41,214 bases of DNA from Bacteroidales bacterium (GTDB lineage: Bacteria; Bacteroidota; Bacteroidia; Bacteroidales; F082): the NCBI GenBank assembly GCA_017645245.1, contig JAGCPG010000117.1:1-41214 (forward strand), read 5' to 3'. Shown piece by piece: positions 4,068 through 25,368 of the stretch. The notes beneath the pieces were generated by a model, which saw only the letters and a list, made by a program, of their open reading frames with translations, was not told where the DNA came from and ran no database searches. Each line of letters begins with the position of its first letter. Position 1 is the stretch's first letter. Made by a program: the position numbers and the translations under genes.

Positions 4068-5606
4068 TTACAGCTCTTTCCTCAGCCTTGCTACTGGAAT
4101 GCCTAACTGTTCCCTATATTTCGCCACGGTGCGGCGGGCAATGGGATAGCCCTTCTCCTTCAACACGATCATCAGCTCCTCGTCGGTGAGCGGCTTGGCC
4201 TTGTTTTCGTCGGCCACGCAGTCTTGCAGGATCTTCTTGATCTCGCGAGTCGAGACCTCTTCGCCCTCCTCGTTGGTGATGCCTTCGCTAAAGAAGGTCT
4301 TCAAGAGGAAGGTGCCGTAAGGCGTCTGCACATACTTGCTGTTGGCCACCCGTGAGATGGTGGAGATGTCCAGTCCGACCTTCTCGGCGATATCTTTCAG
4401 GATCATGGGCTTCAGCTTGGTGTCGTCGCCAGTGAGGAAATACTCCTGCTGCATGTCCATGATGGCCTTCATGGTAATATATAAGGTGTGCTGGCGTTGG
4501 CGGATGGCGTCGATGAACCACTTGGCGCTGTCAATCTTCTGGCGCACGAAGGTGGCGGCCTCCTGCATGCTGCGCGATTCCTTGCTCTTCGAGAAGTCCT
4601 CAAGCATCTTCGTGTACTGCTTGTTGACTTTAAGGTCGGGGTTGTTGCGGCCGTCGAGCGAGAGCTCCAGCACGCCGTCCTTGATGTAGATGAAGAAATC
4701 GGGGGTGATGTAATGGCTGTTGCGGGCTCCCGAGGTGGATGAGTCACCGGGCTTGGGGTTAAGCTTGAGGATCTCATCCAAGGCGGCTTTCAGCTGACGG
4801 TTGCTGGCGCCGGTCTTCTTGGCGATCTTGTCGTAATGCTTCTTGGTGAACTCCTCGAAGCAGTCCTTGATGACGGTGATGCACAGCTTATAGTCGTTGT
4901 AGGGATTCTCCTCCTGAAGCCTTTGCAGCTGTATCAAGAGGCACTCCTGAAGGTCGCTTGCGCCGATGCCGGGAGGATCCAACTGGTGGATCACATTGAG
5001 CACCTTCTTCACTTCCTCTTCGGTGGTCTCGAGGTTCATGGTGAAAAGCAGGTCGTCGACGATGTTGGCGATGGGCCGGCTCAAGTAGCCGTTGTCGTCG
5101 AGGTTGCCGATGATGACTTCGCCGATGATCTCCTCTTCTTCTGTAAGATCATGATAACCAAGTTGTTGTATTAGATAATCCTGAAAAGATTCTTCGTGAA
5201 CGATAGGGGCTTGGTAGTCCTCGTCGTCGGCGCTGCGGTTGTTAACGTGCGACTTGTAGGCGTAGTCGTATTCGTCCTCGTCGGGCAGGTAGTCGTTCAG
5301 GTCGAAGCCTTCTTCCTTGCGGAGGTCGAAATCATCGTCGTTGTAGTCGTCATTCTCCCCGTTGTCATCGTCATTGTCGTCGAAGCCGCCGAGATCGTTA
5401 TCGTCGGTGTTGTCCCTTTCGTCAGCGGTTGACTCGCTCTCATCGCTGTTGATGTTGTCCTCCAAGGCGGGATTGGATTCAATCTCCTCCTTGATGCGCT
5501 GTTCAAGTTCAATCAATGGCAACTGCAGCAGTTTCATCAGTTGGATCTGCTGCGGTGAGAGCTTCAGCTCTTGGCGCTGAATCTGAGTCAATCGTTGGTC
5601 ACTCAT
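4068..5606 (-). CDS. rpoN: RNA polymerase sigma-54 factor
   Basis: Sigma-54 directs RNA polymerase to -24/-12 promoters and needs an AAA+ activator. The 512-residue protein has the Gln/Leu-rich activator-interacting region at residues 1-50 (QRQELKLSPQQIQLMKLLQL). An extremely acidic linker follows at about 55-135, with long runs of Asp, Asn and Glu. Then come the core-binding region, the helix-turn-helix region (LDISTISRVANSKYVQTPYG) and the C-terminal RpoN box ARRTVAKYRE. All regions are present. The start ATG overlaps the asnS stop by one base (TAATG), so translation is probably coupled to asnS. No sigma-54 activator is encoded in this window. Confidence 0.98.
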   Translation of the reverse strand: MSDQRLTQIQRQELKLSPQQIQLMKLLQLPLIELEQRIKEEIESNPALEDNINSDESESTADERDNTDDNDLGGFDDNDDDNGENDDYNDDDFDLRKEEGFDLNDYLPDEDEYDYAYKSHVNNRSADDEDYQAPIVHEESFQDYLIQQLGYHDLTEEEEIIGEVIIGNLDDNGYLSRPIANIVDDLLFTMNLETTEEEVKKVLNVIHQLDPPGIGASDLQECLLIQLQRLQEENPYNDYKLCITVIKDCFEEFTKKHYDKIAKKTGASNRQLKAALDEILKLNPKPGDSSTSGARNSHYITPDFFIYIKDGVLELSLDGRNNPDLKVNKQYTKMLEDFSKSKESRSMQEAATFVRQKIDSAKWFIDAIRQRQHTLYITMKAIMDMQQEYFLTGDDTKLKPMILKDIAEKVGLDISTISRVANSKYVQTPYGTFLLKTFFSEGITNEEGEEVSTREIKKILQDCVADENKAKPLTDEELMIVLKEKGYPIARRTVAKYREQLGIPVARLRKEL

Positions 5607-7045
5607 TAGTATAAGCAGTTTTTAGGAGTTCTTGGGAATGGAATGACGTCGCGGATGTTGCCCATGCCGGTGATGAAGAGCATCAGGCGCTCGAAACCGA
5701 GGCCATAGCCGGAGTGAGGCACGGAGCCGAAACGGCGGCTGTCGAGGTACCAGTTCATGGATTCCTCGGGGATGCCGACTTCATGCATGCGGTCAAGGAT
5801 CTTGTTGATGTCGGTCTCACGCTCGGAACCGCCGATGATCTCGCCGATGCCGGGGAAGAGCACGTCCATGGCGCGGACGGTCTTGCCGTCTTCGTTTTGC
5901 TTCATGTAGAAGGCCTTGATCTCCTTCGGGTAGTCGGTCAGGATGACGGGCTTCTTGAAGTGCTTCTCAACGAGGTAACGTTCGTGTTCGGATTGCAGGT
6001 CGACGCCCCAGCCGTTGACGGGATATTGGAACTTGCCCTTTTTGTTGTAATTGCAGTTGTGCAGAATGTCGATGGCCTCGGTGTAGGTCACTCGGGCAAA
6101 TTCATGCTCGAGCACAAAGTGCAACTTGCTGATGAGCTCCATGGATTTCTCCTCTTCCTTTTTGCCTTTCTCTTCGTCTTGGAGACGCTTGCTGAGGAAC
6201 TGAAGGTCGTCCATGTTGTTGTCCAATGCGTATTGGATCAAGTATTTGAGCATCTCCTCGGCGAGATCCATGTTGTCGTTGATGTCGTAGAAGGCCATCT
6301 CAGGCTCGATCATCCAGAACTCGGCCAGGTGGCGTGTGGTGTTGGAGTTCTCGGCTCGGAAAGTGGGGCCGAAGGTGTAGATCTTGCCCAGAGCCGTAGC
6401 CGCCAATTCGCCTTCGAGCTGACCGGAGACGGTGAGGTTGGTCGACTTGCCGAAGAAGTCCTGTTTATAGTCGATGTTGCCCTGCTCGTCGCGGGGGATG
6501 TTGTTGAGATCGAGAGTGGTCACCTGGAACATCTCGCCGGCACCTTCTGCGTCGGAAGCGGTGATCAGCGGGGTGTGGACGTTGTAGAAGCCCCGCTCGG
6601 TGAAGAACTTATGGATGCCGAACACCATGGCGTGACGCAGACGCATCACGGCGCCGAAGGTGTTGGTGCGGAAACGCAGATGGGCGATGTCGCGCAGGAA
6701 CTCCAACGAGTGTTTCTTGGGCTGCAGCGGGTATTCGTCGGGGTTGGCGGGACCGAAAAGTCCAATCTCCTTCACGGAAAGCTCCACGGCTTGACCACTG
6801 CCCATCGAGGCGACCAACACGCCCTTGGCCCACAGCGAGGCGCCAGCGTGCATCAAGGCCAGGTTCTCCTCGGGGATGACGTTCAGGTCGACGACCAGTT
6901 GAAGGTTGTTGATGGTGGAGCCGTCGTTCAAGGCGATGAAAGCTACGTTCTTGCTGCCGCGCTTGTTGCGCACCCAGCCCATTACGGTGATTTCTTCTTC
7001 CGAAGCCTGCATCTGCAAGGCTTGTTTGATCTCAATTCTTTTCAC
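5606..7045 (-). CDS. asnS: Asparaginyl-tRNA synthetase
   Basis: Class IIb synthetase charging tRNA-Asn. The 479-residue protein has the N-terminal OB-fold anticodon-binding domain (about 1-115, [23 protein letters not shown]). The catalytic core follows, with motif 2 around [25 protein letters not shown] and motif 3 in [29 protein letters not shown] near the C-terminus. The AENSNTTRH sequence marks AsnRS rather than AspRS. A highly charged segment near residues 280-300 ([16 protein letters not shown]) lies in the family's variable insertion. It heads the minus-strand pair with rpoN. A separate AsnRS implies direct charging rather than relying only on transamidation. Confidence 0.98.
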
Positions 7046-7125
7046 GGTATGATGTTTTTCTTGTTACCTAATTAATGAAACCGCAAAGTAACGAAAAAAA
7101 TTGCAATGTGGGTTTGAAATTGTTG

Positions 7126-7133
7126 TACTTTTG
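7126..7133 (+). promoter_or_regulatory. -7 element directly abutting the DAHP synthase start
   Basis: TACTTTTG matches TAnnTTTG. Only five bases separate it from the ATG at 7139, so the predicted transcription start falls at or next to the start codon, with no room for a ribosome-binding site. Confidence 0.6.
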
Positions 7134-7138
7134 CAAGC

Positions 7139-8182
7139 ATGAAAGATCCACTAATCATTGCAGGCCCTTGTAGCGTAGAGAGTGAGGAGCAAATCCTCGC
7201 CACGGCGCAAGCTCTGGCGCAGATCCCACAGGTCACCATGTTGCGAGGCGGCATCTGGAAACCCCGAACCCGCCCCGAAGCCTTCGAGGGCAGGGGAGAG
7301 CAGGGCCTCGTCTGGCTCCGTGAGGCAAAGCAGGCCACGGGCCTGCCCATCCTCACTGAGGTGGCCACACCCGAGCATGTTGAGTTGGCTCTGAAATATG
7401 AGGTCGACGCCTTGTGGGTGGGTGCCCGCACTGTCGTCAATCCCTTCTCGGTGCAACAGCTGGCCGATGCCTTGCGCGGCACCGACGTCCCTTTGTTCAT
7501 CAAAAACCCCGTCGCACCCGACCTGCAGCTTTGGATGGGTGCCTTTGAGCGTTTCCAAAAGGCCGGCGTGACTAAACTTTTTGCTATCCATCGCGGCTTC
7601 TCGTATTACAAGGAGACGCCTTACCGCAACTTCCCGATGTGGGAACTCCCCATCGAGCTCACTCAGAGGCTCAATGTGCCGCTGATCACCGATGTCAGCC
7701 ATATCTGTGGCAACCGTGAACTGTTGCTGCCGACGGCGCAAAAGGCCCTCGATCTCGCTACCGACGGCTTGATGATTGAATGTCACATCAACCCTGATGC
7801 CGCCTTGACGGACGCAAAGCAGCAAATCACGCCTGAAGCTTTGAAAACACTGCTTTCTCAACTGGTCTTTCGCAGCAAGGGAACGGGTAGCGTGGAACAC
7901 GATCTTGCCGAACTTCGAGGTGAGATCGACGACATCGACGGCGAGCTGTTGCAGCTGCTGTCGCGCCGCATGGAGGTCAGCGGCCGTATCGGCGAATACA
8001 AGAAGTGCCACAATGTAGCCGTAGTTCAGATGGATCGTTGGAAACAGATCCTTGCCGACCATATCGCCGTGGGCGGCAGTCTAAACCTTGATCAAGAGCT
8101 TGTGGAAGCTGTGTTTGAGGCCATTCACCAGGCCTCCATCCGTCGTCAAACTGATATCCTTGACGCTTGCGGAAATCAATAG
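7139..8182 (+). CDS. Bifunctional DAHP synthase / chorismate mutase
   Basis: Joins the first step of the shikimate pathway (phosphoenolpyruvate + erythrose 4-phosphate to DAHP) to chorismate mutase, which leads to Phe and Tyr. Residues 1 to about 260 form a type I-beta DAHP synthase: IIAGPCSVES, LRGGIWKPRTRPEAFEG, IKNPVAPD, FAIHRGFSYYK and DVSHICGNRE. Residues about 268-347 form an AroQ-type mutase helix bundle: LRGEIDDIDGELLQLLSRRMEVSGRIGEYK. This domain order is usual in Bacteroidota. The fused mutase may act as the feedback sensor (inference). The gene tail overlaps the convergent lipoprotein by 7 bases. The first codon lies 5 bases after a consensus -7 element. Confidence 0.96.
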   Translation: MKDPLIIAGPCSVESEEQILATAQALAQIPQVTMLRGGIWKPRTRPEAFEGRGEQGLVWLREAKQATGLPILTEVATPEHVELALKYEVDALWVGARTVVNPFSVQQLADALRGTDVPLFIKNPVAPDLQLWMGAFERFQKAGVTKLFAIHRGFSYYKETPYRNFPMWELPIELTQRLNVPLITDVSHICGNRELLLPTAQKALDLATDGLMIECHINPDAALTDAKQQITPEALKTLLSQLVFRSKGTGSVEHDLAELRGEIDDIDGELLQLLSRRMEVSGRIGEYKKCHNVAVVQMDRWKQILADHIAVGGSLNLDQELVEAVFEAIHQASIRRQTDILDACGNQ

Positions 8183-8637
8183 AAAGTGGTGATTCGCAAT
8201 GCTGATCCGTCATAAGTGAAATTGTACGGATACAGGCGGTATCCTTCGCCTCCTTCAAGGATCGTTCCGTCTAAAATACTGTAAATGATGTTGTTGCAGT
8301 TGTCTACAACCTCGAAGTCGTTTTCCACTACCAGGCGGGTACATTCGCCTTCCTCAGTGCAGCAGGTATTGGGTTTGTTGGGGGGCAGTCGGTCCCAAAC
8401 CCTGAAATCCTCCATGGAGACGCGATACACGATGATGCCGCGGCTATTGCTCTCAGGATCAGATGAGTAATACTTGAACCCACCGGGACTGTTGAGCTCA
8501 TATTCTCTGATGGAGTTGGGGTAGATGGTGAAGTCCACGATGGCGGTGAGTCGGTTTGGGTTTTCCCAAACGCTGTGGCAGCTCGGCAAACATCCCGAAA
8601 CCATCAGTAAAAAAGCGATGATAAATGACTTTTTCAT
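8176..8637 (-). CDS. Small lipoprotein with a degenerate Rieske-like domain
   Basis: From the ATG at 8637 the protein has 153 residues. The signal peptide MKKSFIIAFLLMVSGC carries a lipobox with Cys16, so it is probably membrane-anchored. The rest resembles Bacteroidota Rieske-like lipoproteins: GIIVYRVSMEDFRVWDRLPP, a Cys cluster (92, 93, 99), VDNCNNIIYSILDGTILEGG and YRLYPYNFTYDGSALRITTF. The cluster-binding pattern C-x-H...C-x-x-H is missing. The first motif reads PPN and the second retains Cys114 without its His, so a [2Fe-2S] cluster is unlikely. The tail overlaps the DAHP synthase gene by 7 bases. The ATG lies four bases after a consensus -7 element, suggesting a leaderless mRNA. The function is unknown. 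Confidence 0.75.
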   Translation of the reverse strand: MKKSFIIAFLLMVSGCLPSCHSVWENPNRLTAIVDFTIYPNSIREYELNSPGGFKYYSSDPESNSRGIIVYRVSMEDFRVWDRLPPNKPNTCCTEEGECTRLVVENDFEVVDNCNNIIYSILDGTILEGGEGYRLYPYNFTYDGSALRITTFY

Positions 8638-8641
8638 GTCG

Positions 8642-8649
8642 CAAAGGTA
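8642..8649 (-). promoter_or_regulatory. -7 element abutting the Rieske-like lipoprotein start
   Basis: TACCTTTG on the minus strand matches TAnnTTTG and is four bases from the ATG at 8637. It supports this start over an in-frame ATG 12 codons upstream and predicts a leaderless transcript. Confidence 0.6.
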
Positions 8650-8796
8650 ATGGTTTTTCTGAAATCTGGGCATCTAATTATTAATAGGTGTGGTTTTATC
8701 TCTTTTTTTCGGTCTTTCTAATTGGCTAATTTTCATATTGTTTAATAAATGTTAAATTTTTTATGATCAAAAAAATGTCATTAAAAGTCGAATTTT

Positions 8797-8828
8797 CTTG
8801 TGGGATTTCTAAAATGTTTATAATTTTG
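8797..8828 (+). promoter_or_regulatory. Promoter of the receptor / T9SS cargo / PorV-like operon
   Basis: CTTG (8797-8800), 20 bases, TAATTTTG (8821-8828) fits the Bacteroidota promoter layout. The predicted start near 8833 gives a leader of about 53 bases before the ATG at 8886. The region 8674-8885 is otherwise very AT-rich, with no other gene. Confidence 0.6.
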
Positions 8829-8885
8829 GAGTCTTTTTAATGCAAATTGAAATTAAAATGGAAGTATAACATAAAATCAAAAGGT

Positions 8886-11800
8886 ATGTTTAGAAATTTA
8901 CTAATGACCCTTGCAATTGTGATGGCAACCTGCACGTTAGCTTTCGCGCAGCAAGGACGACTCAAAGGAAAGGTTACCGATGAAACGGGAGAGCCCGTGT
9001 CATTCGCAAACATCGTCCTCGAAAAAGGTGGAACGATGATTGGCGGTGCTACTTCGGATTTCGATGGTAACTATGACATCAACCCCATTCCTCCGGGAAC
9101 GTATGATTTGAAGGCGAGCTTCGTCGGCTACAACAATTACGTCCTGAACGGCATTGTTATTCCAGCCAACAAGATCACCGATTGGAACATCAAGATGCAA
9201 AGTGGCGCCATCAGCTTGACGGAAGTCACGGTCATCGATTACGAAGTGCCTCTGATCTCAAAGGATAACACTACTTCCGGTGCATCCATCACGGCAGAGG
9301 AAATCGCTAAATTGCCGAACCGTTCAGCATCCGGCGTCGCATCCACCGTTGGTGGTGTGTATTCCGCTGACGGTGAGGTCGGTAGTATCCGTGGTTCCCG
9401 TGAAGGCGCCGTGACCTACATCGACGGTGTAAAGGTCATCGGTAACTCCAGCGTGCCCCAAGGCGCTATCGACCAAGTGGACGTCATCCTCGGCGGTACC
9501 CCCGCCATGTACGGTGACGCCATGGGCGGTATCATCAACGTGACCACTAAAGGCCCCAGCCGTACCTTCGGTGCCGGTGTCGAGGTTGAGGCTTCAGTCG
9601 AAGGTTACGGCCGTAACCGTTTGGGCTTTAGCCTCCAAGGACCGCTCATCAAGGGTAAGAACGCCGAAACTGCTCTGTTGGGCTTCTTCCTCGCTGGTGA
9701 CCTCGCCTACAACAAGGTAGGCGCCCTCTCGGCAACCGGTTTCTACACCGCTACCGACGAATGGTATAAGGCCATCACTGAGAACCCGCTCGTTCCTTCA
9801 GGCATCGGAAGCGGTACCTACCAAAAGGCTTCCTTCACCAAGAAGGACGACTTGGTCTACTCCAAGAAATCAACCAACACAAGCAACTACTCGATCAACC
9901 TCTCCGGTAACATCAACGTCCGTACCACCGAGACCATCAACCTCACCATCGGTGGATCGTACTATCGGGCCATGTATCACAACTTCGCCCGTTCGTACTC
10001 CTACTTCAACACCGCCAAGAACTCGATCGAGAAGGACAATACGATCCGTGGTTATGTCCGCTTCACCCAGCGCTTCCCCACGGCTCCTGAAAGCACCTCG
10101 CTGATCCGTAACTTCTACTATAGCATCCAAGCCGACTACACCAGATACAACAACGAAGAAGGCGACCCCGATCTGTGGGATAACCTCTTCGCTTACGGCA
10201 ACCTCGGTAAGTTCACCACCTACAAGATGGCAACCTACCAGCTTGGTGATGTCGATTCAGTCCTCATGGCTGACGGTTCCTACCAGAACTTCACCAACGT
10301 CATGGTGCTGAACTCTTGGGACTATGATACCTTGGTTACCTTCGAGGCCTCCGACTTCAACCCGCTGCTGGCCAAATACACAGAGAACGTATATGACCTT
10401 TATGGCATCTATGGCGCTCAAGGCTACTACAACAACTACACCAACCTCCAACTCAATGGCGGTCTGTTGAACGGTAGAAGCGCCCCGGCCATCTATGGTT
10501 TGTATGCCGCTCCCGGTACCTTGATGTCCAACTATAGCAAATATGTCAGCGACCAGATCTCACTCAACGTGAACGCCTCTATGACCATCGGTAAAGGTGA
10601 GAGCTCACACGAAGTGAAACTCGGTTTCCAATACGAACAGCGTAACAGCAGCGGCATGAGCTACAGCTCCGACTACTGGACCCTCATGCGTGGCTTGGTC
10701 AACGCTCATATTCAAGAGTTGGATATGGCCAACCCATACGCCATCTCCTACGGCGGATTTACCGATACGATTCGTTACAACAGATATTATGACGGCGACG
10801 CCCAGTATGTGTTCGACAAGAACTTGCGCGCCGCTATGGGTCTGCCGGTCAATGGAACGGAGTATATCCTCATCGACTCTTACAACTTTGATGACAACAC
10901 CATCCTTTACTACGATGCCACAGGCCACATGAAGAAAGCCACCGTCGAAGGCGGTCTCGATATCAGCATGTTCTCACCTGATGAGTTGACCCGCGACGGT
11001 AACCTCTATGTGTCATACTACGGCTTCACCTACGACGGTAAGAAGCACAAGTGGAACGAGCGTCCTACTCTCGACGACTTCTTCACCGAGGAGAAGACCG
11101 ACGACAACGGCAACACCTTCCTCGCACGTCCCGTCGCATCAAGCCAGCCGATCTACACTGCCGGTTACATCCAAGACAAGTTCGCTTTCAAGGATCTGAT
11201 CTTCCAAATCGGTGTCCGTGCTGACCGTTTCGATGCCAACCAGTTCGTGCTGAAAGATCCGTTCATCCTCTATCAGTATAAGACTGTCGGCGACTTGAGA
11301 AACAATGGCCAGATCCAGCTGCCTACCGGTGAATATGTCACTGTCCCGGGCAACATCGGTGATGATTACGCAGTCTACGTCAACAAGGTCACCGACATCA
11401 ACGAGATCGTCGGTTACCGTAAAGATAACGTCTGGTACAACGCCGACGGTGCCCTGATTTCCTCACCCACCGTGTTGGATAAGGGTTCAGGTATCTCCCC
11501 GTGGTTGGTTAAGGCCGATCAGCAGAGAGTCGACAAGGAGTCATTCGAAGACTATGAGCCCAGCTGGACCTTCATGCCTCGTATCTCCTTCTCATTCCCG
11601 ATTTCTGACGAAGCTTTGTTCTTCGCCCACTATGACGTGTTGACACAGCGTCCTTCCAGTAACTATTTCATTACCCCGCTCACCTATTATTATTTTAATG
11701 ATATCACCGGCACCATCGCCAATCCTAACTTGAAGCCGATGCAGACCGTTGACTATGAGCTCGGTTTCACCCAGAAGATCAACAACACATCATCATTCAC

Positions 11801-12647
11801 CATTACAGCTTACTATCGTGAGATCCGTAACATGATCCAGATGTACCGCCTCACAGGTGCTTATCCTAAGGACTACAACTCCTACAGCAACCTCGACTTC
11901 GGTACCACCAAGGGTCTCACCGCTGAATACGACCTCCGTAGAACGAAGAACATCCGTGTCCGTGCCAACTATACCTTGCAGTATGCAAACATGACCGGTG
12001 CTTCCACTACAACGGCTGCCGCTTTGATCAACGCTGGTGTGCCGAACCTGAGATCAACCTTCCCGACCGGTTTCGACCGTCGTCACGCACTCAGCCTCAC
12101 CGTTGACTATCGTTTCGGCTCAGGCAAGAAGTATGACGGCCCCGTCATTAATCGTGAGAAGTCAGGCAAGAGCCCGCTGCAAATTCTGGCTAACGCTGGT
12201 GTCGCCATGACCATTACCGGTGGTTCCGGTGCTCCTTACACGGCATCACGTACCGTTACCTCCCCGCTCTCCGGCGGTAACAGCTTGCTCGAAGGTACCT
12301 ACTTTGGTTCCAGAATGCCTGCTTCGTTCAAGATCGACCTCCGCGCCGACAAGGACTTCTACTTCACCTTGGGTGGCAAGAAGGAAGGCAAGACTGGTCA
12401 CGAGGCTTTCGTCAATGTCTATGTCAACATTACGAACCTCCTCAACTCCAAGAATATCCTGAATGTGTACAACGCTACCGGCGATCCTGATGATGATGGT
12501 TACCTTACCTCAACCAAATATGCTCAGGAAATCAATAACCAATTGGATCCGGAAGCCTTCATCGACATGTACCGCATTTATGTGAACAGCGGCGGCAACT
12601 ACTCGACTCCTCGTCAGATTAAGATTGGCGCTAGCTTTAACTTCTAA
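8886..12647 (+). CDS. TonB-dependent outer-membrane receptor with carboxypeptidase-like N-domain
   Basis: A protein of about 1253 residues. The ATG at 8886 is preferred because it begins a clean signal peptide (MFRNLLMTLAIVMATCTLAFAQ); a TTG 13 codons upstream adds only charged residues. Residues about 24-105 form a carboxypeptidase-D regulatory-like domain (LKGKVTDETGEPVSFANIVL). About 115-235 is the plug, with IRGSREGAVTYIDGVKV and GGTPAMYGDAMGGIINVTTKG. The rest is a 22-strand-type barrel ending in Phe (KIGASFNF). Such receptors take up substrates using TonB energy or act in T9SS-linked surface assemblies. No SusD partner follows. Codons are strongly biased to GGT, CGT, AAC and TAC, suggesting high expression. 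The stop is 38 bases before the cargo start. Confidence 0.92.
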   Translation: MFRNLLMTLAIVMATCTLAFAQQGRLKGKVTDETGEPVSFANIVLEKGGTMIGGATSDFDGNYDINPIPPGTYDLKASFVGYNNYVLNGIVIPANKITDWNIKMQSGAISLTEVTVIDYEVPLISKDNTTSGASITAEEIAKLPNRSASGVASTVGGVYSADGEVGSIRGSREGAVTYIDGVKVIGNSSVPQGAIDQVDVILGGTPAMYGDAMGGIINVTTKGPSRTFGAGVEVEASVEGYGRNRLGFSLQGPLIKGKNAETALLGFFLAGDLAYNKVGALSATGFYTATDEWYKAITENPLVPSGIGSGTYQKASFTKKDDLVYSKKSTNTSNYSINLSGNINVRTTETINLTIGGSYYRAMYHNFARSYSYFNTAKNSIEKDNTIRGYVRFTQRFPTAPESTSLIRNFYYSIQADYTRYNNEEGDPDLWDNLFAYGNLGKFTTYKMATYQLGDVDSVLMADGSYQNFTNVMVLNSWDYDTLVTFEASDFNPLLAKYTENVYDLYGIYGAQGYYNNYTNLQLNGGLLNGRSAPAIYGLYAAPGTLMSNYSKYVSDQISLNVNASMTIGKGESSHEVKLGFQYEQRNSSGMSYSSDYWTLMRGLVNAHIQELDMANPYAISYGGFTDTIRYNRYYDGDAQYVFDKNLRAAMGLPVNGTEYILIDSYNFDDNTILYYDATGHMKKATVEGGLDISMFSPDELTRDGNLYVSYYGFTYDGKKHKWNERPTLDDFFTEEKTDDNGNTFLARPVASSQPIYTAGYIQDKFAFKDLIFQIGVRADRFDANQFVLKDPFILYQYKTVGDLRNNGQIQLPTGEYVTVPGNIGDDYAVYVNKVTDINEIVGYRKDNVWYNADGALISSPTVLDKGSGISPWLVKADQQRVDKESFEDYEPSWTFMPRISFSFPISDEALFFAHYDVLTQRPSSNYFITPLTYYYFNDITGTIANPNLKPMQTVDYELGFTQKINNTSSFTITAYYREIRNMIQMYRLTGAYPKDYNSYSNLDFGTTKGLTAEYDLRRTKNIRVRANYTLQYANMTGASTTTAAALINAGVPNLRSTFPTGFDRRHALSLTVDYRFGSGKKYDGPVINREKSGKSPLQILANAGVAMTITGGSGAPYTASRTVTSPLSGGNSLLEGTYFGSRMPASFKIDLRADKDFYFTLGGKKEGKTGHEAFVNVYVNITNLLNSKNILNVYNATGDPDDDGYLTSTKYAQEINNQLDPEAFIDMYRIYVNSGGNYSTPRQIKIGASFNF

Positions 12648-12685
12648 TGCATGATGGTAGAACAATAAAGAAAATCACAGTTAAT

Positions 12686-15600
12686 ATGAAGAATATAGTA
12701 CGTCTATTGTTTGTCGCGCTCCTTATTGTGGGTGCCACAATTCCCGGAAAGGCTCACGTCTATGTAGGTGATGGTGAATCTGGAAGAGGTTCCAATGACC
12801 TGAAACAGACCACGGCCGGATGTTCTCCATCTTCCGCTTTTGAATGGCTGAACATCAACAACGTCAGATCTCGTTTTAATGCTGGTGGTGATATGTGGTG
12901 GGACCTCGGTAGTATCGGTGCCCAGTACTTCATCCCTGCCAACGGTTCTGCAACTTCCTTGTTCGCCGGTGCTCTTTGGATCGCCGGTGTCGACATCAAC
13001 AACCAGTTGAAATGCGCCGCCGTTCGTTTCCGCCAAGGTCCCGACCTCAAAGGTGGTAACGACTTCTGGACTGGTCCTCTGACTTTGGATGGTGCTTCCA
13101 TTGACGAAGTTACCTGCGCCCAGTGGGACCAAGTGTTTAAGATTACCCGCGCCGAAGTGGATGAATTCCTGAACTACTGCACCGGTCAACAACCTGCCGA
13201 AAACGCAAGGTATGGCGCCTTCGATAGAGATCGTGCCACCGCTGATGGCTATTCCATCCCCAAGATTATCACCGATTGGCCGGCTCACCCGGAAGTCGTC
13301 GGTGGTAACACCACCGGTATCAGCCATTATATGGCTCCTTTCTATGATAATGACTTGAATGGAGAGTATGATCCTATGATGGGTGACTTCCCATACTATG
13401 ACATCGAGAATGAACTCTGCCACACCAAGATCGCTACCATGGATGAACAATACGAAGGCAGCATGAAGGGCTCCATCCTCTCTGACCAAGTGTTGAAGGG
13501 CGACCAAACCCTGTGGTGGGTGTTCAACGATAAAGGTAATTCCCACACCGAATCACAAGGCGCTTCCATCGGTCTCGAAATCCGTGCCCAAGCCTTCGCT
13601 TTCGCCACCAACGATGAGATCAACAACATGTCGTTCTGCTCCTACGAAATCATCAACCGTTCAACATACGAACTCACTGGCACTTACTTCTGCCCTTGGA
13701 CTGACGTTGACCTCGGTTATGCAAAGGACGACTACGTGGGCTGCGACGTTGCCCGTGGTCTTGGTTACGGCTACAACGGCCGCGCCATCGACGGTAGCGG
13801 TGAACCTGAAGCCTACGGCGACCAGCCTCCAGCGGTAGGTATCGACTTCTTCCAGGGCCCCTACATGGATCCTGATGGCCTCGACAACCCGAAATACACC
13901 TATGAATATGACTACAGCCAATTCATTGGTTTCAGTCCAACTGGTGACTCCTTGTTCGCTGTTAAGGATTCAACCCAAATCTGCGACGTCTCCATCAACG
14001 GTGTGAACTTCGGTAACGGTATCGTCGATGACGAACGTTTCGGCATGCGCCGTTTCCTGTATCACAACAACGACAACTCCAACACTGGTGACCCGAAATA
14101 TGCAGCTGACTATTACCTGATGCTTCAAGGTATTTGGAAGGATGGTAATAAGATGATGTATGGCGGTAACGCTTATCCTGGTGTTACCGGTACTGTGGGT
14201 CCTGCCTGCGACTTCATGTTCCCTGGCGATACTGACCCGTGCAACTGGGGTACTGGTGGCAATCCTCCTGCGGAAGGCTACAACCAGAATGGTAAGTATT
14301 GGACCGACTCTGAGGCTGGCAACGAGCCTGCTGACCGTCGTTTCATGCAGTCCGCTGGTCCTTTCACCCTGAGACCAGGTGCCGTTAACTACATCACCTT
14401 CGGTGTGCCGTGGGCCCGCGCCACCTCTGGCGGCCCGCTCGCCTCTGTCGAACTCCTCCGCGTCACCGACGACAAGTGCCAGGCCTTGTTCGACAACTGC
14501 TTCAAAGTGATCGACGGTCCTAGCGCTCCTGACCTCACCATCCGTGAGCTGGATCAAAAACTCATCATCTACCTCTCCAATAGCGCTATTTCCAACAACT
14601 ATAAGGAAGGTTATGTGGAGCCTGATAATGAGATTGCTGAGTATTTCCCATGGGATACTGCTCATACCACCAAGCTCGATCGTGACTATCGCTTCGAAGG
14701 TTACAAGGTTTATCAGTTGGTCAACAACGAAGTTGGTGCCGACGAACTCGACAACAACGCCAAAGCCCGCTTGATCTTCCAGTGCGATATCAAGAACGGT
14801 GTTTCACGCCTTGTGAACTACACTCTGAACGATCAGATCGGCGCCATCGTCCCTGCCCTCAAGGTTGAAGGTGCTGATGCTGGTATCTCCCATAGCTTCG
14901 TCGTCACCGAAGACAAGTTCTCCGCTGGTGACAACCCAGCTTTGGTGAACCACAAGACCTATTACTTCATGGCTGTGGCTTATGCTTACAACAACTTCCT
15001 GACCTACTCACAGGAGCCCACCGACGAACATGGTCTCTACGGTCAAAAGAAGCCTTACCTCGAAGGTCGTAAGAACATCCAGATCTACTCCGGTGTGCCG
15101 CACAAGATTGTCAACGGTACTGTAATGCGCTGCGAATATGGCCAGAAGCCTGCTGTCCAACGTTTGGTCGGTCAAGGTAACGGCGCCAATGAACTCGAGC
15201 TTGCCGATGAATGTGTCAATGAACTCTTTACCAAGAAACTTGCCAATTCTATTGACGAAACAGGTAATAAGGTCGTCTTCGGTCACCCCGATTACCCGAT
15301 CATCTACCATCCTCAATATAAGGTTGGCTTTGGCCCATTGGATGTGAAGGTCATCGACCCGTTGAACGTGAAGACCGCCAGCTATGAGTTGTGGTTCGAC
15401 ACCTTGTTCGAGGCTGTCACTAAGAATGTCTCCACTAATAATAAGGTGTATATCCAAAACGAAAATGGCCAATATGTCCAAGGCAGTGAAGCTACCCGTA
15501 TGGTTTCCCACTGGTATATGAAAGACCTGGAGACTGGTGAGGTTGCTAAGAGCGATACCACTACAGCTTACGGCGACGAGAAGATGTTCATTGAAAGAGG

Positions 15601-17248
15601 TCTCTCTGTCACTGTCAATCAGCCCTACCTTGCTGGTCCTGTCAAGGTCGGTTACATGTATGATGACAACACTTGGAAGGTCGCCAAAGAGAACATTTCT
15701 CCGAAGAGCGGTTTGATCACCACAACGTTTACCTTCCAGGATAGTACGAAGAAATGGCTCGATGGTATCCGCGACTGCGATAACCCGCCTATTTCATCCT
15801 TGAACTGGATACGTGCCGGTAAGTACTTCGACAGGGAAAACCCCGCCTATAACGACTATGATCTGGCCGACAAGGTAACGGCAGTAGCTTACGACCCAAC
15901 TGAGTCGTTCGAAAAGATCGCCAATGGTACCTGGGCTCCGCTTTACCTTTCTGCTTGCGATGTCACCACGGTTTATCCTGTGCCGAACCCGAATATCTTC
16001 TCAAGCGTTGCTAACTATTACCCAAGACTCGCTAGTGTTGATATCGTGATGACAGCTGATAAGTCAAAATGGACTCGTTGCCCTGTTGTTGAAATGTGTA
16101 GGGACAATAAACTTTCAGAGAACAACGTGAAGACCTACTTCATGAGAAAGGCTCCGTCCATCGACAAGGATGGTAATCCTTACATGGTTCGTGACTCTGT
16201 GACCAATCAAATGGTTCCGTTCTCTGATTGGGATAACGCCGACGATCCAAAATACAGAAGCGACAATCCTGACGATCCTAACTTCATCTCCCCACAGGGT
16301 ATGGGCTGGTTCCCAGGCTATGTCATCGATATTGAAAGCGGTGCCCGTCTGAACCTCATCTACGGTGAGGATTCCTACCTTGCCGACTTGAACGGTCGCG
16401 ACATGCAGTTCAATCCTCCGATGCTGAGAAAGACCACGGTCGATTTAGGCAGCGAATTCCAAGTCCTTGATCCCGCCATCTATCGTCAAATCGACGCTGA
16501 GGAAGTGTTTGGTGGCCGTCACTATGTGTACGTTCTGGGCATGGATAACCCGACCGATATCGCTCCGTCAGTACCAATTCCACAGGCTGAGTTCTGCTGC
16601 CCCGCATACGATGGTGGTGCATACGCAGCCAACCTCTTCTTCAAGTTCCAGGCTAAACCCAACCAGGAGAGAGTCTTGAGTACCATGCTGTGGCGTCAAG
16701 TTCAATACGTCGGTATGCCGATGGGTGTCGAAGGCACCACATGGCTTGAACCTGGTAACGATGCTAAGATCCGCATCCGTGTGGGTCGCCCGTATGACCA
16801 AGGTTATTCATACATCCCGCTGGATTCCGTCTATCCTGGTTTGGACATCAACAACATGTATCCTAAGTACAAGTTCGCAATCGATGGTCTGAACCCAGTG
16901 CTCAACGATCCTGATAAGACCGAGACCGACCTCGACCTCATCACCGTCGTACCCAATCCTTACTACGCTTACTCAACCTACGAGAAGAACGCTCTTAACA
17001 ACACCGTTAAGATCACGAACCTCCCGAACAACTGTACGGTGACCATCTACAACTTGAGTGGTACCAAGATCCGTCAGTTCAAGAAGGATAACGAGGATGC
17101 CTCCATCGATTGGGATCTCACTAACTTCGCCAACACTCCTGTGGCCTCAGGCTTCTACCTGATCCACATCAAGGATAACGAGAGCGGTGGCGAACGCACG
17201 ATCAAGTTCTTCGGTGCAATGCGTCTAATTGACTTGAATACGTTCTAA
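12686..17248 (+). CDS. Very large T9SS-exported surface protein
   Basis: A protein of about 1520 residues. The ATG at 12686 begins a signal peptide (MKNIVRLLFVALLIVGATIPGKA); an earlier ATG at 12647 overlaps the receptor stop and adds a polar leader. No enzyme domain is recognised. The N-terminal half has LNINNVRSRFNAGGDMWWDLG, a Ca-loop-like DNDLNGEYDPMMGDFP near residue 219, and long Trp/Tyr/Asp-rich stretches such as QTLWWVFNDKGNSHTES. I associate this layout with a Bacteroidota family of T9SS-sorted proteins often found beside PorV/PorQ-like genes. The C-terminus (VVPNPYYAYS near 1423, then YNLSGTKIRQF and ASGFYLIHIKDN) is a type A-like sorting domain, but it runs on past the usual end with FFGAMRLIDLNTF. 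It is probably exported and attached at the cell surface; its ligand is unknown. Confidence 0.85.
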   Translation: MKNIVRLLFVALLIVGATIPGKAHVYVGDGESGRGSNDLKQTTAGCSPSSAFEWLNINNVRSRFNAGGDMWWDLGSIGAQYFIPANGSATSLFAGALWIAGVDINNQLKCAAVRFRQGPDLKGGNDFWTGPLTLDGASIDEVTCAQWDQVFKITRAEVDEFLNYCTGQQPAENARYGAFDRDRATADGYSIPKIITDWPAHPEVVGGNTTGISHYMAPFYDNDLNGEYDPMMGDFPYYDIENELCHTKIATMDEQYEGSMKGSILSDQVLKGDQTLWWVFNDKGNSHTESQGASIGLEIRAQAFAFATNDEINNMSFCSYEIINRSTYELTGTYFCPWTDVDLGYAKDDYVGCDVARGLGYGYNGRAIDGSGEPEAYGDQPPAVGIDFFQGPYMDPDGLDNPKYTYEYDYSQFIGFSPTGDSLFAVKDSTQICDVSINGVNFGNGIVDDERFGMRRFLYHNNDNSNTGDPKYAADYYLMLQGIWKDGNKMMYGGNAYPGVTGTVGPACDFMFPGDTDPCNWGTGGNPPAEGYNQNGKYWTDSEAGNEPADRRFMQSAGPFTLRPGAVNYITFGVPWARATSGGPLASVELLRVTDDKCQALFDNCFKVIDGPSAPDLTIRELDQKLIIYLSNSAISNNYKEGYVEPDNEIAEYFPWDTAHTTKLDRDYRFEGYKVYQLVNNEVGADELDNNAKARLIFQCDIKNGVSRLVNYTLNDQIGAIVPALKVEGADAGISHSFVVTEDKFSAGDNPALVNHKTYYFMAVAYAYNNFLTYSQEPTDEHGLYGQKKPYLEGRKNIQIYSGVPHKIVNGTVMRCEYGQKPAVQRLVGQGNGANELELADECVNELFTKKLANSIDETGNKVVFGHPDYPIIYHPQYKVGFGPLDVKVIDPLNVKTASYELWFDTLFEAVTKNVSTNNKVYIQNENGQYVQGSEATRMVSHWYMKDLETGEVAKSDTTTAYGDEKMFIERGLSVTVNQPYLAGPVKVGYMYDDNTWKVAKENISPKSGLITTTFTFQDSTKKWLDGIRDCDNPPISSLNWIRAGKYFDRENPAYNDYDLADKVTAVAYDPTESFEKIANGTWAPLYLSACDVTTVYPVPNPNIFSSVANYYPRLASVDIVMTADKSKWTRCPVVEMCRDNKLSENNVKTYFMRKAPSIDKDGNPYMVRDSVTNQMVPFSDWDNADDPKYRSDNPDDPNFISPQGMGWFPGYVIDIESGARLNLIYGEDSYLADLNGRDMQFNPPMLRKTTVDLGSEFQVLDPAIYRQIDAEEVFGGRHYVYVLGMDNPTDIAPSVPIPQAEFCCPAYDGGAYAANLFFKFQAKPNQERVLSTMLWRQVQYVGMPMGVEGTTWLEPGNDAKIRIRVGRPYDQGYSYIPLDSVYPGLDINNMYPKYKFAIDGLNPVLNDPDKTETDLDLITVVPNPYYAYSTYEKNALNNTVKITNLPNNCTVTIYNLSGTKIRQFKKDNEDASIDWDLTNFANTPVASGFYLIHIKDNESGGERTIKFFGAMRLIDLNTF

Positions 17249-17287
17249 TTTACTCGGATGAATGCTAACTTTAAAAATTTCAGAATC

Positions 17288-18358
17288 ATGAAGAAATCAT
17301 TTAGATATATAGTTTTGAGCCTTGTTCTCCTTCTCGGAGTCAGCGCTCCCAAGGCATTTGCAGGTAATGAGGACCGTTCTGGTCAAGCCGGTGCTCCCGA
17401 ATTGTTGATCAACCCCTTCGCCGCCTCGGCTGGCTGGGGCAATGCAGGCATGTCGTTTGTCAAAGGCGTTGAAGCCATGTTTGGCAACGTGGCCGGCATC
17501 TCGACCATCAATTCACTGGATGTCAACTTCTCACACACCGATTGGCTGAAAGGCTCCGACGTAAAAATCTCATCCTTCGGTCTGACTATCCGCGTTAGCG
17601 AATCAGGCGTTCTCGGTCTCTCCTTCTTCACCCTCAACCCGGGTACCATCAAAGAGACGACCACTGATAGCCCCGATGGCAATGGCGCCACCTTCAAACC
17701 GTCACTCATGCATATCGGTGTTGCCTACGCCAAGATGTTCTCCAACAGCATCAGCGGTGGCTTCAACCTGAAGATCATCAGCGAGTCAATCGCTAACATG
17801 AGCGCTACCGGTGTGGCACTCGACGCAGGTATCCAATATGTCACAGGTCCTTTCGACAACATCCATTTCGGTATCACCTTGAAGAACATTGGTCCTACCA
17901 TGACGTTCTCAGGCGACGGTCTGGCATTCAAGGCCTACTTCAACACCAACAGCTCACTCCAATGGACCGTTATCCAACGTGCCGACCAGTTTGAGCTTCC
18001 TACTCAGTTGAGTATCGCTGCCGCTTATGACTTCCACTTCGCCGAGACTCATCGTCTGACCCTGGCTGGCAACTTCATCTCCAACTCCTTCACCAGAGAC
18101 CAGTATGTTGCTGGTATCGAATACAGCTGGAGAGAATGGTTGCTGCTCCGTACCGGTTACGTCTTCGAGAGCGGTATCTTCAAAGGCGTCTTGGACGACG
18201 ACTGCATGAACCTCAACAAAGGCCTTCATGCCGGTTGCTCCATCCAAGTCCCGATCTCAAAGAAAGAGAACGCTCCTGTGATCGCAATCGACTATGCGTT
18301 CCGCCAGACCTACAGCTATCAAGGCTCGCACAGTGTAGGTGCTAGACTTATTTTCTAA
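17288..18358 (+). CDS. PorV/PorQ-family outer-membrane protein
   Basis: A 356-residue protein from the ATG at 17288, which starts the signal peptide MKKSFRYIVLSLVLLLGVSAPKAFA. The mature part begins with PELLINPFAASAGWGNAGMSFVKGVEAMFGNVAGI, the hallmark opening of the PorV/PorQ family. It continues as a FadL-like 14-strand barrel (FGLTIRVSESGVLGLSFFTL, ATGVALDAGIQYVTG) ending in aromatic-hydrophobic ARLIF. PorV binds T9SS cargo C-terminal domains and passes cargo to the attachment complex; PorQ acts with PorZ. This protein is a paralogue type, not clearly PorV itself. It is third in the operon, 39 bases after the large cargo gene, so it probably serves that cargo (inference). Confidence 0.88.
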   Translation: MKKSFRYIVLSLVLLLGVSAPKAFAGNEDRSGQAGAPELLINPFAASAGWGNAGMSFVKGVEAMFGNVAGISTINSLDVNFSHTDWLKGSDVKISSFGLTIRVSESGVLGLSFFTLNPGTIKETTTDSPDGNGATFKPSLMHIGVAYAKMFSNSISGGFNLKIISESIANMSATGVALDAGIQYVTGPFDNIHFGITLKNIGPTMTFSGDGLAFKAYFNTNSSLQWTVIQRADQFELPTQLSIAAAYDFHFAETHRLTLAGNFISNSFTRDQYVAGIEYSWREWLLLRTGYVFESGIFKGVLDDDCMNLNKGLHAGCSIQVPISKKENAPVIAIDYAFRQTYSYQGSHSVGARLIF

Positions 18359-18363
18359 AATGT

Positions 18364-18396
18364 TTTGCGACATTTAAGATATTTTTAGTATCTTTG
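18364..18396 (+). promoter_or_regulatory. Consensus promoter for greA
   Basis: TTTG (18364-18367), 21 bases, TATCTTTG (18389-18396) matches the Bacteroidota primary-sigma promoter exactly. The predicted start is near 18401, about 66 bases upstream of the greA ATG and just before a terminator-like hairpin. Confidence 0.75.
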
Positions 18397-18406
18397 CACG
18401 TTGAAC

Positions 18407-18446
18407 AAAAGGAAGACCCTTATTCCGGTAAGGGTCTCCTTTTTTC
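18407..18446 (+). terminator. Terminator-like hairpin in the greA leader (candidate attenuator)
   Basis: The stem AGACCCTTA/TAAGGGTCT closes a TTCCGG loop. It extends through a one-base bulge by GG/CC and an A-run pairing with the downstream T-run (18440-18445). It is an intrinsic terminator in form. It lies 48 bases after the PorV-like stop, but also downstream of the greA promoter, so transcripts from that promoter must read through it. It could end the upstream operon, attenuate greA, or both. Confidence 0.75.
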
Positions 18447-18466
18447 ACGTTTTAAAAACCAATATC

Positions 18467-23191: not shown

Positions 23192-25237
23192 TTACTTCAC
23201 CACGAACTTCACGGTGTTGTTGAAGCCGTTAGCAGTGATGGTGCAGAAGTAAACGCCGCTCTTGAGGTCGATGTTGATGGCATTCTCACCCATGTGGAGG
23301 TTCTGGTTGAACTGCTTCACAGTTTGGCCAACGAGGTTGACGATGGTGATGGTGGCATCAGCATCCTGAGCTGACTTCACGTTCATGATGTTGCCAGTCA
23401 CAGGGTTGGGATAGATGTCGTAAACAACATTCTGGGCCTCGGTCTCAGGAACATTCACGAAATCAGGATTGGCAATAACCTTGCACACGTGGATGATGTT
23501 TTCTGTTCCTTCGGTTTGTGTGGCGCCTGATCCCCAGTAGAAGCCGATCTTATCGTCGCCTTGGTATGAGAACCAGAATTCACCAACATTTACGGTGTTG
23601 GCAACGGCGCTTGTGAAGACACCTTCAGTGTAGATGAGCATGAAGTCTTCCATGAGGTCGTCTTCCAATTGATGCCAGTAACCTTCTTCGACGTTCTTAT
23701 AACTTACCAAAATGGTTCTGCAGTAGTAGGTTGAACCAGCGCCTTGTGTGCCGGGACGGGCAGTGCAAGGTGTTGAGAAAGCGCAGGCGAGGTTGCCGTT
23801 AGGATCGCATGAGAGAGCCGGATGACCTGAAGCACCATAGAACTTGCTCACATATTCTGAGCCTGACATATAGTACATGTCGTTATCCCACTGAATCGGA
23901 GCACCGGAATTGTCATTGTACATCGGGATGTAACCAATCCATTTGGTTGAGTCGGAGAGCATGTGGACATAACCTGGATCATCGGCAATTGGCCACCATA
24001 AACGTGCAGCGTGGTGCTGGTTGGGCTGTGCAAAGTGAGCTTCGTAAGGAGTGCCAATATATTCTGGGTGCTCTGTGTCATGGATAGGATCTTGTGTGTC
24101 GTTCCAGTAAAGGATACCGTCAACGGAACGGCCATTCCAGTAAGTGTAATAACCAGGCTCGTTCTCCAAGGTGTGAGCCATCTCAAAAGTGTTGAGTGCA
24201 ACGTGGACAACACCGCTGTTGTCAATAACAATAGAGCCATTCATGGGCATGAACAGAGTGTCTTCCATTCCCCAAGAAGGATCTTCGTCAAATTCTCTTC
24301 CTTCGTATGGGTTTTCCCAAACTCTAGTGGGTTCCCATGTTGCACCGTCGTCGGTTGATTTGAACATCCAAACGCTGTTGGTCAAGCAACCTGAGTAGAG
24401 GAGGGCTACATTGTGACCGTTGGCAGCCATGCAGTAGTCATCAGCTGAGAATTGGTTGTGATCCCAAGGAGTGGCAAGATCGTGAAGAGGACCGTAGGTG
24501 ACTGTCCAGCTGTTGATGTCAGCAGGGTTTTCTGAACGCCACATCACAGTCTGGAGGTCGGTTTCGTCTTCACTGATGGTGTGCTGAAGAACAGCAACAG
24601 CAACAGCAATGTTATGGTTGTCACCGCAGGTGACGATTCTTGGCCATGTGGGATACTCAGTGGTGTAAGCATAGCCATCAGGATAATCCGGAAGAGCACC
24701 AACGTGAGTCCAGTCGCCTTCACCAGCAGTTGTTCTGATGAAGCACTGCATGTGACCATTACCGTGAGCGAGGAGGATTTCACCGTTTGAGCCAAACTGT
24801 GCGATGGAAGGCCAACCGGTCTTGAAAGGCTCAACACGTACTTCTGGCTGATCATCCCAATCGCTGCCATCGTAGAAGTTGTAACCGGTACCACGGTCCG
24901 AAGCGGTTTGGTTGTTTTCGTGTGACATGGTAGCAGTAACGGCTACTTCACCAGTGGGCAACTGATACATACGGTTGGCAACATACTGGTTCGACTGGAG
25001 GTCATAGTAGGTCCACATGGTCTCACCGTCTTCCATGTCTTCAAATCTGTTGACGACAACGCTGGTGGCGGTTTGAGGAGCGTAAGTGGCTGCCGAAGTG
25101 GCGGAAAGGTCTTTTCCAACAACGGCTTTCTTGCTGGAAGCGACACCCTGGCGAAGATCATTCTTCATGATTCTCTGCTGGGCAATTGCACTGAAACCTA
25201 ATACAAGGCTCAATGAGAGTAAAAGAACTTTTTTCAT
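23192..25237 (-). CDS. T9SS-exported Asp-box (BNR-like) surface protein
   Basis: A 681-residue protein with signal peptide MKKVLLLSLSLVLGFSAIAQ. It has a likely propeller-like body containing the Asp-box FKSTDDGATWEPTRVW and similar stretches (SGVVHVALNTFEMAH, NGNLACAFSTP). The C-terminus is a textbook type A sorting domain of about 75 residues: YDIYPNPVTGNIMNV, TITIVNLVGQTVKQF, and SGVYFCTITANGFNNTVKFVVK at the very end. Asp-box proteins include sialidases, but I see no Arg triad or catalytic Glu/Tyr set to support an enzyme, so binding or an unknown activity is equally possible. It is divergent from the GH92 gene and shares the priA terminator. Confidence 0.87.
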   Translation of the reverse strand: MKKVLLLSLSLVLGFSAIAQQRIMKNDLRQGVASSKKAVVGKDLSATSAATYAPQTATSVVVNRFEDMEDGETMWTYYDLQSNQYVANRMYQLPTGEVAVTATMSHENNQTASDRGTGYNFYDGSDWDDQPEVRVEPFKTGWPSIAQFGSNGEILLAHGNGHMQCFIRTTAGEGDWTHVGALPDYPDGYAYTTEYPTWPRIVTCGDNHNIAVAVAVLQHTISEDETDLQTVMWRSENPADINSWTVTYGPLHDLATPWDHNQFSADDYCMAANGHNVALLYSGCLTNSVWMFKSTDDGATWEPTRVWENPYEGREFDEDPSWGMEDTLFMPMNGSIVIDNSGVVHVALNTFEMAHTLENEPGYYTYWNGRSVDGILYWNDTQDPIHDTEHPEYIGTPYEAHFAQPNQHHAARLWWPIADDPGYVHMLSDSTKWIGYIPMYNDNSGAPIQWDNDMYYMSGSEYVSKFYGASGHPALSCDPNGNLACAFSTPCTARPGTQGAGSTYYCRTILVSYKNVEEGYWHQLEDDLMEDFMLIYTEGVFTSAVANTVNVGEFWFSYQGDDKIGFYWGSGATQTEGTENIIHVCKVIANPDFVNVPETEAQNVVYDIYPNPVTGNIMNVKSAQDADATITIVNLVGQTVKQFNQNLHMGENAINIDLKSGVYFCTITANGFNNTVKFVVK

Positions 25238-25300: not shown

Positions 25301-25342
25301 ACAAAAGTTTTCTTTTGGCGCTTTATTATGTGTTTTTTTTCT

Positions 25343-25350
25343 TACTTTTG
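25343..25350 (+). promoter_or_regulatory. -7 element of the GH92 gene
   Basis: TACTTTTG matches TAnnTTTG. The predicted start near 25355 leaves a leader of about 14 bases and supports the ATG at 25369 over the earlier in-frame start at 25315, which lies upstream of the promoter. Confidence 0.6.
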
Positions 25351-25368
25351 ACAAACAAAAATCTTGCC

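Follow-up and report, generated by a model that had tools for sequence, protein, structure and literature searches.

Within the type IX secretion system (T9SS), two barrels of the PorV family each work with one surface protein, PorQ with PorZ and PorV with PorU, and in Porphyromonas gingivalis the surface protein of each pair retains its sorting domain (PMC5562754; papers are cited here and below from excerpts). Cargos with type B sorting domains, SprB and PG1035 among them, are handled and apparently also anchored by barrels of the PorP/SprF group (PMC12618676, PMC9143113). SusCD pairs a TonB-dependent receptor with a surface lipoprotein. The locus described here is a three-gene unit encoding a TonB-dependent receptor, a T9SS cargo, and a PorV/PorQ-family barrel, in that order on the forward strand and separated by 38 and 39 bases, in a Bacteroidales bacterium (GTDB lineage F082; assembly GCA_017645245.1, contig JAGCPG010000117.1). 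The window, meaning the whole stretch analysed, is 41,214 nucleotides long; the source genome, 2.44 Mb in size, is available as a draft of 145 contigs. An earlier note, made from the sequence alone, had proposed these genes, their coordinates, and their spacing, all of which are confirmed by open reading frames (ORFs) and domain matches.

The linkage of the three genes and their coupled signatures, a barrel branch and a sorting-domain class, are strongly supported. Such a module is undescribed as far as could be found: titles, abstracts, and passages from the open text of PubMed Central, which covers neither bioRxiv preprints nor the bulk of subscription papers, yielded no description, and none stands in the excerpts of the 2025 papers on the Bacteroidota β-barrel assembly machinery (BAM) complex (PMC12578637, PMC12611786). 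What the trio does is a reasoned guess.

Gene order is conserved well beyond the source genome. From 103 cargo relatives, 80 were kept as a near set, all from Bacteroidota or its subgroups; the receptor is present in 78/80, the barrel in 77/80, and the complete trio in 75, with all five missing genes explained by contig ends. A genus survey found the barrel in 33 of 35 genomes, both misses being drafts (85% and 58% completeness). The first 40 stretches from distant genomes carry the full trio in 36 cases (one barrel clipped by a contig end), the exceptions being three stretches clipped by contig ends and one, L197, with the cargo alone; 20 further stretches carry it in 16. These stretches were chosen by hand and are not random samples, the 40 coming from the top of the match list and the 20 from further down, and another 20, taken as suspected copies outside the trio, are not a random sample either. 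Linkage in the near and distant sets rules out a chance neighbourhood of three genes. The earlier note had named a lack of conserved linkage among relatives as one result that would refute it; the co-occurrence survey found linkage that spans the phylum. Of 395 genomes sampled within the phylum, 127 match a profile of cargo domain 1; so do 2 of 15 picked genomes, 14 of which had an earlier cargo match. The figure of 207/395 genomes with cargo matches was rejected as a trio count, many of those matches being partial. At L197 (positions 4425-10318) the cargo is tailed and has neither receptor nor barrel alongside; its upstream side holds what by eye are ExbD, ExbD, and ExbB-like genes. Four other loci (L428, L446, L458, L459) encode tandem domain-1 proteins with ordinary sorting-domain ends and lack the trio.

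The trio barrel lies outside both PorV and PorQ and represents a third branch of the family that they share. It is a member of NF033709, a family whose name covers PorV and PorQ and states no partner, operon, or role (134.9 bits, cut-off 90), and it falls below the cut-offs of both the PorV model NF033710 (68.2 bits, cut-off 250) and the PorQ model NF033711 (60.4 bits, cut-off 220); the genome's own PorV and PorQ reach 443 and 285.8 bits. When 126 proteins are placed in one tree, a branch supported at 100 has the trio barrels on one side, and PorV reaches 99 and PorQ 100. Among the reference rows, 1 of the 29 labelled PorV and 4 of the 29 labelled PorQ score below their own family cut-off. The trees rule out a recent copy of PorV.

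Other members of the family extend this branch. Forty loci were sampled, not at random, from matches under the PorV cut-off, and three were reassigned: L470 to the trio clade, L505 to PorQ (kept as a control), and L486 to an odd long PorV branch. In the remaining 37, a cargo-sized gene lies directly upstream of the barrel in 34 and a receptor in 3, and 31 of the 34 module loci have a receptor upstream of the cargo gene. In a second tree, the barrels of the 34 and the 3 loci join those of the trio in a group of 73 rows with support 97, separate from both PorV (99) and PorQ (99). Because module barrels group with trio barrels, the window trio is one member of a module family. Control loci look different: a sorting-domain gene of ordinary or intermediate type, PorU by position, lies upstream at 21 of 29 PorV loci, with one classed as module-like, and a sorting-domain or receptor gene lies directly upstream at 0/29 PorQ loci. 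The branch can be numerous within one genome, as in the sampled genome G326, where the PorV model finds 27 matches at E 0.001, the true PorV included. At L477, L478, and L500 the receptor adjoins the barrel with no cargo between, and these barrels form one clade inside the module branch.

The sorting domains of module cargos form a separate class. The window cargo meets the type A model TIGR04183 (25.1 bits, cut-off 23) and lies below the cut-off of the Pfam sorting-domain model; none of the six cargos of other modules scanned with TIGR04183, out of 34, reaches its cut-off. All 34 module cargos share their own class, against 0/105 ordinary domains of the source genome, which holds 110 sorting-domain matches. 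Other domains from the module stretches lean to the module model in 4 of 38 cases, one being that of L470 and one (L479) adjoining another barrel, as do, by small margins, 17/21 upstream sorting domains at PorV loci. The solved structures nearest to the cargo sorting domain are that of PorZ, first, and also that of PorU. A clear place for PorZ and PorU in the module class was rejected, the genome's own PorZ being a near tie (23.9 vs 24.7 bits) and its own PorU ordinary (8.7 vs 22.9). Together, the separate barrel clade and the separate sorting-domain class support the earlier idea of a dedicated PorV-like partner. The source genome also has, by eye, a second PorU-like gene directly before PorU (L327:1338-4712).

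Within the subfamily of the window, the sorting domain also carries an extra tail, 12 residues past the last matched position and nine past the end of the model. The genome has 105 further domains whose end is known; 104 of them extend at most one residue past the model and one extends three. That survey took in 107 of 109 other matches, excluding one clipped by a contig end and one below the cut-off; in two of the 107, at least 28 further residues follow with no stop codon inside the retrieved sequence. The tail is present in 79/79 near-set cargos with a readable end. In distant genomes, at least nine extra residues occur in 54/54 cargos paired with a barrel versus 6/36 domain-1 homologues without one, a comparison that left out 11 rows that were incomplete or had no sorting-domain match, 5 that were short downstream, and 1 ending in N. 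One of the six tailed homologues, L454, looks misaligned, given a score of 0 for both of its sister genes. In a tree of 90 body proteins, barrel-paired and barrel-less members interleave, with 13 label changes, and among 13 independent pairs the tail tracks the barrel in an average of 11 and opposes it in none (median p 0.001). Body and sorting-domain type have thus separated and rejoined more than once, the type going with the barrel. The tail does not mark barrel-held cargos in general, other modules being without it, and the genome's own PorZ and PorU do not share it.

The unit resembles SusCD in some respects and differs in others. The receptor has CarboxypepD_reg, plug, and barrel domains, all above Pfam cut-offs, and among PDB sequences its N-terminal domain finds a match in a SusC homologue (E 4.7e-5). 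As in SusCD, a TonB-dependent receptor is fixed to a large surface protein and the modules have diversified within genomes. Unlike in SusCD, the receptor matches no NCBIfam model named for SusC at E 0.1, a Pfam scan of ten neighbours shows no SusD, and a T9SS cargo with its barrel replaces the lipoprotein. The earlier statement that the system is distinct from SusCD is supported by the lack of such a model match and of a SusD among those neighbours, and is tempered by the match of the N-terminal domain. The trio shares with SprF/PorP a cargo gene beside a FadL-type barrel, yet cargo and barrel match no type B sorting domain or PorP/SprF-family model of NCBIfam at E 0.1, and the excerpts describe those pairs without a receptor as part. 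It differs from PorQ-PorZ and PorV-PorU in that a TonB-dependent receptor belongs to the unit and the cargo body is neither PorZ nor PorU: the cargo reaches 28.8 bits with the PorZ model NF052228 (cut-off 260), its sorting domain alone matching, against 614 bits for the genome's own PorZ. PDB sequence searches with cargo and barrel gave chance-level matches only. The cargo has a signal peptide, judged by eye, and its body domain was modelled as a supersandwich at pLDDT 61, a fold comparison over residues 22-587 that is not read as function. Divergence of the receptor parallels that of the cargo body (r 0.96). Elsewhere in the genome lies a paralogue of cargo domain 1, 480 residues long and by eye without a sorting domain (L326:323-1762).

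With about an even chance, the three proteins would form one surface machine, an importer resembling SusCD in which the T9SS delivers the surface subunit and a barrel of its own holds it. The cargo would cross by Sec and then through the T9SS translocon, by means of a sorting domain of its own class. On SprA, PorV docks with its loops in the pore, binds the sorting domain there, and departs with it (PMC10994853), and type A domains are stated to be all recognized by PorV (PMC12618676, 2025). Here the neighbouring barrel, rather than the general PorV, might collect the sorting domain and keep it uncleaved, out of reach of PorU, as PorQ does with PorZ and PorV with PorU; retention, reported for those pairs, is a prediction for the trio. 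In the window subfamily, the extra tail may help lock the domain into the barrel. The large body would be held above the receptor, which would take up the ligand that the body captures, as SusC does with SusD. Whether the whole third branch consists of permanent surface anchors is more tentative, a claim put at somewhat under even odds.

Several observations pull against this machine. The window cargo still clears the ordinary type A cut-off, and in Prevotella intermedia both long and short domains of ordinary type A undergo cleavage (PMC11969387). The three branch loci that have receptor and barrel do so without an intervening cargo, and 9/41 domain-1 homologues without a barrel lean to the module class, L188 being included owing to a contig end. 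The tail is not generally required, being absent from other modules. The correlation between barrel and sorting domain is only 0.31 once the receptor is accounted for, and direct pairing of the two is for that reason not singled out.

An ordinary T9SS cargo with an extra shuttle would account for some of this: the barrel would add PorV-like capacity, PorU would cut off the sorting domain, the cargo would be linked to the surface polysaccharide, and the receptor would merely be co-expressed. The type A score and the presence of PorU, PorV, PorQ, and PorZ in the genome fit such a scheme, which is nonetheless unlikely. A spare PorV needs no sorting-domain class of its own, so the way class and barrel branch travel together across diverse modules counts against it, and co-expression alone does not explain a fixed order across families. 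Less probable again is a static surface coat or adhesin, anchored by the barrel as type B cargos are thought to be by PorP/SprF (PMC9143113, PMC12618676) and having the receptor as a structural or signalling partner instead of an importer of what the cargo binds; a large cargo with above-average codon adaptation would suit it. A TonB-dependent receptor that is a fixed neighbour (31/34 modules, 78/80 near loci) and that diverges in step with the cargo body suits it poorly. The barrel might also itself carry a hydrophobic ligand in the manner of FadL, acting in series with the receptor, with the general PorV carrying the cargo. PorV-like barrels do belong to the FadL family (PMC9143113, PMC12578637), and the cargo-less loci pair a barrel with a receptor, but the sorting domain of the upstream cargo switches class with the barrel, and this carrier is the least probable account, at long odds.

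If the single importing machine is right, and the receptor imports what the cargo catches, the modules would be an unnamed group of nutrient systems in Bacteroidota, unnamed in part because their cargos escape the usual sorting-domain model. A 2023 review proposed that cognate PorV-like barrels may shield the sorting domain from cleavage (PMC10202324), and the module family offers a phylum-wide test set for that idea.

Table 1. Positions of the trio, its parts, and flanking signals in the window.
Feature	Position	Strand	Length or extent	Basis
Promoter-like site 5' of trio	8798..8828	+		Pattern scan
TonB-dependent receptor with N-terminal carboxypeptidase-regulatory-like domain	8886..12647	+	1253 amino acids	
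T9SS cargo	12686..17248	+	1520 residues	
Conserved N-terminal body domain of cargo	12752..14515	+	About residues 23-610; approximate limits	Alignment and model
C-terminal sorting domain of module class, in cargo	16913..17209	+		Profile match, model, class comparison
C-terminal tail of cargo, past matched sorting domain	17210..17245	+	12 residues	
PorV/PorQ-family barrel, third (module-associated) branch	17288..18358	+	356 amino acids	Profile and trees
Terminator-like hairpin 3' of trio, with T run	18414..18437	+		Hairpin scan, folding

The site upstream of the trio resembles promoters of the Bacteroidota type; the window holds 8 sites with this motif, versus 0.8 in mononucleotide shuffles. Terminator-like hairpins are as common in the window as in shuffles (8 vs 8.5). 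The one after the trio is among the two longest stems, the other being the same hairpin on the minus strand, and folding of 18360-18460 gives a z of -5.1. The end of the operon is uncertain because a second promoter-like site from the pattern scan (18365-18396), which presumably serves greA, precedes the hairpin. Together, this site and the strong hairpin before greA (18365-18460) may have two roles, one as the trio terminator and one as a leader attenuator for greA.

Codon adaptation of the trio genes is above average and not exceptional. Scored against an EF-Tu fragment from this genome, they reach 0.523, 0.503, and 0.481, versus a median of 0.394 for 36 ORFs of the genome, mostly from T9SS cargo loci, two of them from the window itself and one of these being part of the trio cargo. 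The strong bias that the earlier note had described is confirmed in part and is milder than described, since asparaginyl-tRNA synthetase (0.535) and greA (0.500) in the same window are equally high.

Downstream, greA and a HIT gene follow the trio in 76/76 sufficiently long near loci. Beyond them in the window, about 1 kb past the trio, lies a gene for a T9SS Plug protein (PF17116; 19351-20625), and such a gene is found at most 2.5 kb away in 25/76 near loci. The window also encodes a T9SS cargo with a body of no known kind (23192-25237) and a GH92-family protein (25315-28251).
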